A DNA stretch of 64,000 nucleotides. It comes from Caldanaerobacter subterraneus (GTDB lineage: Bacteria > Bacillota > Thermoanaerobacteria > Thermoanaerobacterales > Thermoanaerobacteraceae). Under the pieces are notes generated by a model. That model had not been told where the DNA came from and ran no database searches. It worked only from the letters and a program-made list of their open reading frames with translations. The DNA lies in contig NZ_SLWU01000001.1 of the NCBI RefSeq assembly GCF_004345675.1, forward strand, positions 1-64,000. Direction: 5' to 3'. A program made the position numbers and the translations under genes. Positions 27,108-57,468 of this stretch are shown here, one piece after another (within the stretch, counting starts at the first letter, position 1; each line of letters opens with the position of its first letter).

Positions 27108-27160
27108 CCCCTCATTTCATAATATGTAGTGCGGCAATGGATTTTTAGTGAAATGAGGGG
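27108..27160 (+). promoter_or_regulatory. Hairpin hiding the ribosome site of the next gene
   Basis: CCCCTCATTTCA (27108-27119) is perfectly complementary to TGAAATGAGGGG (27149-27160), around a 29-base loop. The right arm contains most of the GAGGGGGA ribosome site of the gene starting at 27171. No U tract follows, so it is not a normal terminator. It may act as a translational thermosensor or switch; that is inference. Confidence 0.6.
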
Positions 27161-27170
27161 GATTAAGCAA

Positions 27171-28139
27171 ATGCCAGTGAATATATACAAGCGTTCTTAT
27201 ATAGTATTAAATCCAGAGGACAAAGGATGTTCTTTTGAAGGGAAGGAAGTCTCAGGATATCTAAAATTAGAATTTAGAGGGAATAGAGGCAGAATAACTG
27301 CTGCCCTTCAAAACCTTAATCCTGATTATTCCTATAACTTGAAGCTTTTGAAATCGAACGGGGATATAGTTGTGGTGGATTTTGGAGCCTTGAAAGTGGA
27401 TGACAAGGGAAGAGGTGGAGGAGAGTGGACTTTTGATTTGGAGGATGTAAAGGGTTCAGGTCTTAAATGGGAGGAATTTGCTGTTATTTTAGTAGAAGCG
27501 CATGACGGAGAGAAGTTTTTGGTGCCTCTTGTTTCTCAAATGAACAAAAAAAGCTCAAATTGGAAGAGCGCTTACAGAAAATATTTAATTAAAAGGGAGA
27601 GCGAAGAAAGTGAAACCCATAAAGAAGAAACAGTTGAAGAGAAGAAAGTTGAGGTTTCACCAGCTCCGGAAACTGTCTATGAGAAGATTGAACCTGAGGA
27701 AGATGCACTAAAAGAAAATTTAGAAAAAGAAGACAGTAACAATAAAGAAGAAGCAGACTATATAAAGTATTTGAAAGAATATGTCAACAACATAGTAAAC
27801 TTTTTGGAGGAAGTGCAGCCTTTTGAAAAGAACTTGGAAGGCTACAGGTGGTGGAAAGTAAAGACTGGATACAGAGAGGGAAGTTTTGACCATTACCTTG
27901 TGGGTTTTGTGAAGGACGAGAAAGGGGATTTAAAGTATATCGTCTATGGGATGCCAGGATTTTTCACCCTTTCAGATCAGCCTTTTGCAGGTATGACGGG
28001 CTTTGTGGTTTGGAAACCTGTAAGAGAAGGTTTCAGGGGGCCGAGAGATGAGGGGTATTGGCTTATGCACATAGATGCAAAAACAGGGCAGATTGCGGTG
28101 CCTATAGAGCCCACTCCTCCGCCTATAATACAAAATTAA
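27171..28139 (+). CDS. Conserved-type protein of unknown function, two folded ends with an acidic linker
   Basis: A 322-aa protein without signal peptide or membrane helices. Residues ~1-125 form a beta-rich domain (GRITAALQNLNPDYSYNLKL looks like a domain that handles small-molecule or CotE-type repeats). Residues ~140-205 are a Glu/Lys-rich linker. The last ~130 residues are aromatic-rich (YRWWKVKTGYREGS, YGMPGFFTLSDQPFAGMTGF, GYWLMHID). The ATG at 27171 is used with GAGGGGGA. I do not recognise the family. Its partly hidden ribosome site suggests controlled translation, and a spore-coat-like role is possible but unproven. Confidence 0.72.
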   Translation: MPVNIYKRSYIVLNPEDKGCSFEGKEVSGYLKLEFRGNRGRITAALQNLNPDYSYNLKLLKSNGDIVVVDFGALKVDDKGRGGGEWTFDLEDVKGSGLKWEEFAVILVEAHDGEKFLVPLVSQMNKKSSNWKSAYRKYLIKRESEESETHKEETVEEKKVEVSPAPETVYEKIEPEEDALKENLEKEDSNNKEEADYIKYLKEYVNNIVNFLEEVQPFEKNLEGYRWWKVKTGYREGSFDHYLVGFVKDEKGDLKYIVYGMPGFFTLSDQPFAGMTGFVVWKPVREGFRGPRDEGYWLMHIDAKTGQIAVPIEPTPPPIIQN

Positions 28140-28161
28140 AAAGGGGCAATAAAGCCCCTTT
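28140..28161 (+). repeat. Left copy of a duplicated terminator flanking repeat element 1
   Basis: The 22 bases are identical to 28414-28435. They form an AAAGGGGC/GCCCCTTT hairpin right behind the preceding stop codon, so this was the native terminator before the element arrived. It reads as a long target-site duplication. Confidence 0.8.
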
Positions 28162-28413
28162 CAGACTGTTGACAAAGTTTAAAAGTGGCATTTTGTGTGT
28201 AAATGCGACTTGTTGTCAAAGCGGTAACTAAACTTGGCGAACTTGAGGGGCGAAGGCGGGGCGAGCGAAGCGAGCGACCACCTGAGCCCGAAGGGCGAAT
28301 TGGTCGGGACCCCGCCGGAGCCCGAAAAGTGAGCCTTAGTTTAGTCGCTTTGCAACTCCGGAGCATTAACACAAAATGCCACTTAAATTAATATGGGTTT
28401 TGTCAACAAACTG
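28162..28413. repeat. Structured foldback element, copy 1 (252 bp)
   Basis: The element starts CAGACTGTTGACAAA and ends TTTGTCAACAAACTG, an imperfect inverted repeat. Inner arms AAGTGGCATTTTGTGT and ACACAAAATGCCACTT (16 bp perfect) and CAAAGCGG/AGTCGCTTTG extend the foldback. The GC-rich centre forms nested stems, such as CGACCA (28275-28280) with TGGTCG (28301-28306) around GCCC-GAA-GGGC. A diverged second copy lies at 57190-57437 and keeps the pairings by paired base changes. It has no protein-coding frame worth calling. It is probably a small non-autonomous mobile element or structured RNA. Confidence 0.85.
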
Positions 28414-28435
28414 AAAGGGGCAATAAAGCCCCTTT
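28414..28435 (+). repeat. Right copy of the duplicated terminator
   Basis: Identical to 28140-28161 and followed by AATTTTG. It overlaps by two bases the 3' end of the convergent HPr-like gene, for which it also serves as terminator. Confidence 0.8.
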
Positions 28436-55214: not shown

Positions 55215-57158
55215 ATGGCAAAGGCTAAAGAATCTGACAAGAGGAAGCTTTCTCACGAAGCCTACGGCGGAGTTCACGGAAGTGAGTACATCCCATTTAT
55301 TCCAGCTGATAAGGTACTTCCAGAGCTCACAGCAGTAGCAGTTATAGTAGGAAGCTTATTTGCCATTCTTTTTGCGGCAGCTAATGCTTACCTTGGGTTA
55401 AAGGCGGGAATGACTATAAGTGCAGCTATTCCTGCGGCAGTTTTGGCAACTGCTTTGCTAAAAGGCCTTTTTAAGAGGGACAGCATCCTAGAATCTAACT
55501 TGGTGATGGCCATTGCTGCTACAGGAGAAAGTTTGGCAGGAGGTATTATATTTACTCTTCCGGCAATCGTGCTTTGGGGGCTAAAGGATGAGTTCACATT
55601 AACTCGAATTGTATTTGTAATCCTCATAGGTGGACTTTTGGGAGCGCTCTTTGTGATACCTTTAAGAAGGTATTTGACTGTGGAAGAGCACGGGAAGCTC
55701 ATTTATCCAGAAGGAATGGCAGCCGCGGAAGTGTTAGTTACAAGCAACCAGGGTGGAACAGGGTTCATGACAGTGCTGTCAGGAATGATTGTAGGAGGAA
55801 TTTATAAACTCCTCTCTGGCGGTTTTGGCATGTGGTCTGAAAACCCTTCATGGGTCATTAAGAGGTTTGAGAGCACAGAAGTAGGAGTAAATGTTTTGGC
55901 ATCATTAATGGGTGTTGGATTTATTGTGGGATTGGATGTAGCTATGTACATGTTGGCAGGTAGCGTTTTGGCATGGCTAGGACTAATTCCCCTTATAAAG
56001 TTCTTTGGTGCAGGGCTTACTACACCTATCTGTCCAGCTACTGAGCTAATAAGGGACATGTCCGCCGGGGCTATATGGAGTAAATACATAAGATACATAG
56101 GCGCTGGTGGCGTGTTGGCAGGAGGATTTATAAGCCTTATAAAAGCCCTTCCTACCATCATAAAGGCTTTCAGAGAATCAATAGTAGGGCTTGGAATGAA
56201 AGGCAAAGAATTAAAAAGGACAGATGTGGATGTTTCCCTCACGTGGGTTATATTTGGAGCAGCATTTGTATTCTTTGTAGCCTGGCTTATGCCCTCCCTT
56301 GGAGTGACTGCACTGGGTAGTTTAATGGCAGTATTGTTTGCGTTTTTCTTTGCTGTAGTGTCTGCCAGGATTACAGGACTTGTAGGCGTATCTAACAACC
56401 CAATTTCTGGTATGACTATTGCTACTTTGCTAATAGTGACTTCTGTTTTAAAACTTGCTGGCGTAGTAGGAAATGAGGGTATGATAATTGCCATCACAAT
56501 TGGCGGTATTGTGTGCGTAGCAGCTGCTATAGCAGGAGCTAATGCTCAGTCTTTAAAGACTACTTTCATCATAGGTGGAACGCCTAAATATATCGAGATA
56601 TTCACATATGTAGGAATAGCAGTAGCTTCTATTTTTGCAGGGCTAGTTTTGATACTTCTAAATAATGCTTACGGTTTTGGCACAAAAGATATCCCAGCTC
56701 CTCAAGCTACTATAATGTCAATGGTAGTAAAGGGCATTATGACAGGAGACCTCCCATGGACTTTCATAATTGCTGGAATATTCATGGGCATAATGGCTGA
56801 AATGATGCACGTTCCGGTTCTTCCATTTGCTATAGGGCTTTACCTGCCTTTCGAGTTAAGTGCTGCTATTGCTATTGGTGGGATTATAAGGTGGATTGTA
56901 GACCAGCAGTACAGAAAGGACGAGCAGTTGAGAAAAGAGAAAGTCGAAAAGGGTATACTTGTAGCGTCGGGACTTGTGGCAGGAGATGCGCTTATGGGAC
57001 TTGTAATAGCCATATTCGCAGGAGCAAAAATAAGTATAGACTTTGCCTCCAACTGGGCTACAAACACCTCTTCCTTTGCGCCATGGTTTTCTCTCTTGAT
57101 GTTCCTCTTAGTAGGACTTTTCCTGTATTACTATACTGTTAAAAATGATAAGAAATAA
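55215..57158 (+). CDS. OPT-family oligopeptide transporter
   Basis: A 647-aa membrane protein with roughly 15 helices. OPT features are GLKAGMTISAAIPAAVLATALL, the KLIYPEGMAAAEVLV motif and NPISGMTIATLLI near the middle. It should carry peptides or metal-peptide chelates. A strong AGGAGGG site precedes it. Downstream of its stop lies hairpin-flanked repeat element 2 and then a PqqD-like gene. Confidence 0.93.
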   Translation: MAKAKESDKRKLSHEAYGGVHGSEYIPFIPADKVLPELTAVAVIVGSLFAILFAAANAYLGLKAGMTISAAIPAAVLATALLKGLFKRDSILESNLVMAIAATGESLAGGIIFTLPAIVLWGLKDEFTLTRIVFVILIGGLLGALFVIPLRRYLTVEEHGKLIYPEGMAAAEVLVTSNQGGTGFMTVLSGMIVGGIYKLLSGGFGMWSENPSWVIKRFESTEVGVNVLASLMGVGFIVGLDVAMYMLAGSVLAWLGLIPLIKFFGAGLTTPICPATELIRDMSAGAIWSKYIRYIGAGGVLAGGFISLIKALPTIIKAFRESIVGLGMKGKELKRTDVDVSLTWVIFGAAFVFFVAWLMPSLGVTALGSLMAVLFAFFFAVVSARITGLVGVSNNPISGMTIATLLIVTSVLKLAGVVGNEGMIIAITIGGIVCVAAAIAGANAQSLKTTFIIGGTPKYIEIFTYVGIAVASIFAGLVLILLNNAYGFGTKDIPAPQATIMSMVVKGIMTGDLPWTFIIAGIFMGIMAEMMHVPVLPFAIGLYLPFELSAAIAIGGIIRWIVDQQYRKDEQLRKEKVEKGILVASGLVAGDALMGLVIAIFAGAKISIDFASNWATNTSSFAPWFSLLMFLLVGLFLYYYTVKNDKK

Positions 57159-57161
57159 AAC

Positions 57162-57189
57162 TGGAGCACTCCCACTAACAGGGAGTGCT
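57162..57189 (+). repeat. Left copy of the duplicated gene-end hairpin flanking repeat element 2
   Basis: GAGCACTCCC and GGGAGTGCTC form a perfect hairpin just past the OPT stop codon. A near-identical copy, with three changes, lies at 57438-57468. Confidence 0.75.
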
Positions 57190-57437
57190 CAGACTGTTGA
57201 TAAAATTAGAAAAGTGGCATTTTGTGTGTAAATGCGACTTGTTACAAATCGGTAACAAAACTTGGCAAGCTTGAGAAGCGGAGGCGGGGCGAGCGAAGCG
57301 AGCGGCCACCTGAGCCGTTAGGCGAATTGGCCGGTACTCCGCCGTAGCTCTCAAGCGAGCCTTAGTTTTGTCGCTTTGTAACTCTGGAGCATTAACACAA
57401 AATGCCACTTAATTAAGAAAAGCTTTATCAACAAACT
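57190..57437. repeat. Structured foldback element, copy 2 (248 bp)
   Basis: It starts CAGACTGTTGATAAA and ends with TTTATCAACAAAC. It keeps the AAGTGGCATTTTGTGT/ACACAAAATGCCACTT arms and the central GC-rich stems of copy 1. Differences keep the pairing: GTTGATAAA/TTTATCAAC here versus GTTGACAAA/TTTGTCAAC, and CGGCCA/TGGCCG (57303-57308, 57328-57333) versus CGACCA/TGGTCG. The inner hairpin is shorter here (GCC-GTTA-GGC). Confidence 0.85.
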
Positions 57438-57468
57438 TGGAGCACTCCCACCCACAGGGAGTACTCAG
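57438..57468 (+). repeat. Right copy of the duplicated gene-end hairpin
   Basis: Matches 57162-57192 with three base differences, so this insertion is older than the one at 28162, whose flanks are identical. Confidence 0.75.

Follow-up and report, generated by a model that had tools for sequence, protein, structure and literature searches.

A MITE of Caldanaerobacter subterraneus flanked by duplicated target hairpins, and an IS1182-family insertion sequence that shares its ends

Comparison of a 64,000-nucleotide stretch of the Caldanaerobacter subterraneus genome (the window; contig NZ_SLWU01000001.1, assembly GCF_004345675.1) with the rest of that genome and with its relatives revealed a family of small mobile elements that has defined ends, a partner insertion sequence (IS), hairpins as targets, a duplication that comprises the entire target hairpin, and empty sites in related genomes. 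Based on these sequence features, the transposase of an IS1182-type IS very probably moves the MITE in trans, choosing its targets by hairpin shape and duplicating the whole hairpin upon insertion.

The window contains two copies of the element. The first is a MITE of 252 bp without a transposase gene (28162–28413, plus strand), and it is bordered on each side by one 22-bp terminator hairpin, AAAGGGGCAATAAAGCCCCTTT, the two being identical at 22/22 positions, as had been noted in the preliminary description. The left hairpin (28140–28161), which has an 8-bp stem, directly follows the stop codon of the ORF at 27129–28139, and the right hairpin occupies 28414–28435. The ends of the element are imperfect inverted repeats of 15 bp, with CAGACTGTTGACAAA on the left (28162–28176, plus strand) and CAGTTTGTTGACAAA on the right (28399–28413, minus strand), and between them lies a long foldback (approximate extent 28182–28389, plus strand), consisting of the stem AAGTGGCATTTTGTG/CACAAAATGCCACTT and inner helices and supported by covariation among 24 copies. 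The second MITE copy (249 bp; 57190–57438, plus strand) follows the ORF at 55215–57158 and is flanked by 27-bp hairpins at 57163–57189 and 57439–57465. It was originally described as having the same design with a different hairpin, which holds true except that its two hairpins are not identical and agree at 24/27 positions; we interpret them as duplicated hairpins that have since diverged. Neither element contains an ORF of at least 80 aa.

Throughout this genome (2.58 Mb in 79 contigs) we identified 12 full copies of the element, 249–253 bp in length, and one partial copy. Eleven of the full copies are flanked by direct repeats of 19–27 bp that are hairpins, the sequence of which is specific to each site, so the other insertion sites anticipated for the element do exist. 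All members carry CAGACTGTTGACAAA at one side and CAGTTTGTTGACAAA at the other, and the two ends are thus asymmetric (ACTG on the left, TTTG on the right). The family resembles bacterial MITEs in general, being a short, geneless unit with terminal inverted repeats that is present in several scattered copies, duplicates its target, has empty sites in relatives, and shares its ends with an autonomous IS of the same genome; it differs from them in that the length of the duplication varies and equals that of the target hairpin, and in that the interior is unrelated to the IS and is kept as a covarying structure. At one further copy (L003, C2:133374–133625) the two flanking hairpins differ in a mirror-wise manner, i.e., the proximal arms are alike and the distal arms are alike, with the loop unchanged.

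Orthologous positions in related genomes were informative for both window copies. The site of the first copy is empty and holds one hairpin (GCGTAGTCTCTACGC or a variant) in eight genomes (G002–G005 and G007–G010), and that of the second copy consists of a single hairpin without the element in seven genomes. The flanks of these empty sites are approximately 71–81% identical to those of the present genome, so that they do not show the exact hairpin that this species had before the insertion. The pattern that would have spoken against insertion, i.e., orthologous sites that are always filled and an element found nowhere else, was not observed. In one additional genome (G006), the terminator corresponding to the first site bears an insertion that begins with the same end sequence and belongs to a 265-bp subfamily, which we regard as an independent event. 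Since hairpins flank every copy, they might be considered terminators carried by the element as its own ends and mistaken for a target duplication. A metagenome-assembled genome (MAG G008; L141, L142 and L197–L213), in which many different MITE copies have one right-hand hairpin in common, would fit such an arrangement, and a captured hairpin was considered for it; however, intact duplications are present farther out, and the pattern more likely reflects misassembly at repeats. Each site also has a hairpin sequence of its own, shared only by the two flanks of that site (a cross-pairing control is given below), and the empty sites retain one hairpin where there is no element. Empty sites and cross-pairing together refute the notion that the hairpins are parts of the element, and we assign it almost no probability.

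To characterize the duplication, we analyzed 71 copies of the MITE and the IS, taken from this genome and its relatives with MAG G008 left out, and counted a duplication as long when it comprised at least 15 bp at no less than 85% identity. Long target duplications of 17–33 bp were detected at 55 of the 71 copies, 39 of them exact, while cross-paired flanks gave such a duplication in only 10 of 4970 combinations. When the hairpin was measured from the left flank alone, as its span plus symmetric unpaired foot bases, this span equaled the length of the duplication in 49/53 cases and was within 2 bases of it in all 53 (r = 0.995), with a mean difference of 0.09 bp compared with a permuted mean of 3.96. 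Dyad symmetry had a sharp maximum where the duplication has its midpoint (0.76) and fell to about 0.3 or less at shifts of 1–8 bases. As some of the 55 sites are orthologous between species, the number of independent sites is estimated to be nearer 50. No clear long duplication was seen at the remaining 16 copies, which include decayed copies, copies with an indel and some that appear to have recombined (L012, L119). One of the 16, a full IS copy (L116, G004:C1:398354–402005), lies at a site that is not a hairpin, with a direct repeat of at most 6 bp.

With classical DDE transposons, the enzyme determines how far apart its two cuts lie, and the duplication therefore has a constant or nearly constant length. 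In the present case, the sequence comparison indicates that the target is a hairpin, mostly a gene terminator, whose structure, and not the enzyme, sets how long the duplication is. The earlier statement that the target is a terminator is borne out insofar as a terminator-like run of A or T (at least 4) is present at 50 of the 55 sites; the target is nevertheless the hairpin, not the terminator as such. These A/T runs, together with the strongly A/T character of the bases at the cut site and with the numerous stems that continue past the cut, would also be compatible with a transposase that recognizes a palindromic duplex or a feature of terminators, such as A/T tracts or a stalled polymerase or transcript, and that measures the palindrome otherwise than by its extrusion. 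We consider this unlikely, although it deserves more weight than the other alternatives, given that the duplication tracks the hairpin span over 17–33 bp without an internal consensus, where a protein binding linear DNA would need a fixed spacing, and that at least one IS copy (L118) duplicated a palindrome lacking an A/T tract. As a point against target choice by hairpin shape, the stem, which ends exactly at the duplication in 24/55 sites, continues 1–8 pairs farther in 31/55, and the cut may therefore coincide with the foot or be displaced by a few pairs into the stem.

The full-length, transposase-bearing relative with the same ends that had been sought is a 1566-bp IS of the IS1182 family, which is present in this genome as well as in complete genomes of the genus. 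In the present assembly, many contig ends carry the same 15-bp termini with the same asymmetry, and these delimit an IS that has a DDE transposase. Full copies, in the relatives G003 and G004, are 1560–1568 bp long and run between CAGACTGTTGACAAA and TTTGTCAACAAACTG, within the unit size of about 1.3–2 kb expected of the IS1182 family. The transposase scored 496.3 bits against the IS1182 model NF033551 (cut-off 270) and contains the Pfam domains DUF772 and DDE_Tnp_1_6. Although the IS is broken by the draft assembly in this genome, all seven pairs of contig ends across it (C8/C20, C9/C13, C19/C32, C24/C51, C3/C43, C60/C21 and C2/C23) agree by their shared hairpin, and in relatives duplications of 19–32 bp flank 11 of 13 full copies.

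The similarity between MITE and IS is confined to about 15 bp at the ends, beyond which the two are unrelated, which leaves mobilization in trans by this particular IS inferred; the MITE is apparently moved by the transposase of the IS1182-family IS. The lack of relatedness past 15 bp, as well as an assembly (G010) that has many MITE copies and no match to the IS, might suggest that a different, unseen enzyme moves the element, or that the element is now immobile and resembles the IS by coincidence or ancestry. This is improbable in our view, as the asymmetric ends, the target rule and the duplication rule are all the same as those of the IS in the same genome. Relatives of the IS with transposases that are 50–52% identical, from one uncultured member of the Bacilli, one genome of the Erysipelotrichaceae and Paenibacillus, likewise show hairpin duplications of 18–23 bp, which makes the rule a property of the IS subgroup that extends beyond this genome. 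Around remoter transposase relatives, a scan of G001 and G011–G018 found no flanking hairpin repeats.

The transposase reading frame has no stop codon within the IS; it continues through the right inverted repeat into the duplicated hairpin and beyond, and terminates in host sequence, as in L117 (1001–2503; G004) and L052 (1258–2238, minus strand; G000 C21). The C-terminus consequently varies by insertion, with open frames of 502–548 aa in full copies. In Thermoanaerobacter wiegelii, several IS copies (L180–L183, L121, L123) carry a group II intron in or near the terminal repeat, following CAGACTGT or CAGTTTGT, and the hairpin duplications of these copies lie outside the enlarged unit.

For DDE enzymes, the duplication is as long as the interval that separates the two strand transfers. 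A duplication that invariably has the length of the hairpin and lacks an internal consensus is what would be expected if the transfers hit the 5′ foot on both strands. We propose that the transposase would recognize its target, a palindromic hairpin that is usually a Rho-independent terminator, from the shape rather than the sequence, and that it would join the 3′ ends of the element to the hairpin's 5′ foot on both strands, placing the two strand transfers exactly one hairpin apart. Gap repair would then copy the entire hairpin to either side, yielding a duplication as long as the hairpin (17–33 bp). We infer that the substrate is a cruciform or a single-strand hairpin, and the strand-transfer chemistry is proposed on the same comparative grounds. 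The terminator of the upstream gene would stay intact, and the second hairpin would constitute a new target. Reuse of a second hairpin is seen at C2:146743–147028, where a MITE and an IS have the middle hairpin in common, and tandem arrangements with hairpin reuse are present in G004 and G009 (L148, L146).

The interior of the element was analyzed for its structure. The whole window element folds as one long foldback, much more stably than shuffled sequence (z of −9.6 as RNA and −9.8 as DNA). Across 24 divergent copies, standard pairs were found in 97.3% of pair cells, and two-sided changes affected 25 of 69 pairs, i.e., 147 cells, compared with 49.5 in shuffles and at most 30 in slid structures. 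This strong covariation indicates that the fold is maintained, and the long inverted repeat could be conserved for reasons of DNA or RNA. The window copy had no match in Rfam at an E-value of 1. A search with RF01731, the TwoAYGGAY RNA, gave one match in G000 (E 7.2), and the window's own subfamily, which differs from TwoAYGGAY in being without AYGGAY loops, had none. Full-length matches were obtained for the 265-bp MITE subfamily of other Thermoanaerobacter and for single-copy relatives in a further genus (g3), with best scores of 30–43 bits; relatives reach 42.7 bits, just below the gathering score of 43 bits, and control genomes gave almost no matches. In genus g3 (L065, L066, L067, L070), the single-copy relative of the MITE interior has a constant place, lacks CAG ends and adjoins a putative glycerate kinase gene.

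One member of another family of the same order (G036) harbors about 20 dispersed RF01731 copies above the threshold. The TwoAYGGAY copies of G035 and G036 (L287–L306), many of which exceed the Rfam cut-off, have ends other than those of the MITE; 6 of the 13 copies with settable ends show repeats of 8–13 bases near these ends (1.9% in cross-pairs), and no hairpin duplications were seen at the 13 copies of the above-threshold family in these two genomes. Given these other ends and shorter repeats, the TwoAYGGAY family is not simply this MITE, and it may represent the core of mobile elements that have more than one type of end. TwoAYGGAY, an orphan structured RNA, has been listed as cis-regulatory or proposed to be a CsrA-binding RNA (RF01731; PMC2864571, PMC4333381).

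Several known systems are comparable in part. Direct repeats that vary widely are listed for the IS1182 family in ISfinder and in its review chapter, and this makes a duplication of variable length less novel. Group IIC introns likewise insert beside terminator hairpins recognized by structure; they differ in being retrotransposing ribozymes that have no terminal inverted repeats and are not known to duplicate the hairpin. The closest likeness is to IS1272 and TnSha1, which share with the present elements an IS1182-family transposase, the choice of hairpins, including terminators, by structure, and a varied hairpin length. In those systems the hairpin is wholly or partly removed and there is no target duplication, whereas here it is duplicated entire, with both sides keeping the whole hairpin in 55 of the 71 copies. 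For the staphylococcal IS1272, the proposed pathway, as given in the available portion of Wan et al., loses the hairpin, and duplication of the whole stem-loop is drawn there hypothetically, as an alternative pathway b, with no example in that portion (PMC5678879). Furi et al. report that IS1272 and TnSha1 target hairpins with deletion and without duplication (PMC4923244). Palindrome-targeting IS1182 members, which have the same transposase family and palindromic targets as here, were mentioned by Siguier et al. in 2015, as cited in PMC5678879 and PMC4923244; according to PMC5678879 no detailed data accompanied them, and the available papers yielded neither a relation of length to hairpin nor a MITE partner. 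Our search of the available papers returned no report on Thermoanaerobacter MITEs or on whole-hairpin duplication by IS1182 elements.

As a wider and more tentative proposal, to which we give slightly less than even chances as a whole, a widespread IS1182 subgroup and its MITEs would make hairpin-dictated duplications by transfer to the 5′ foot of an extruded hairpin, and TwoAYGGAY would be the core of dispersed mobile elements, at least in the Thermoanaerobacterales. If this is true, the subgroup leaves the terminators at which it inserts undestroyed and creates a new target each time. About fifty natural sites whose spacing is set by structure make a strong comparative case for structure-directed target capture, and the branch of the IS1272 model that had been drawn and left unproven becomes testable. 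In ecological terms, insertion is presumed to be harmless to the host: with a complete terminator remaining on either side, the element should do it little harm.
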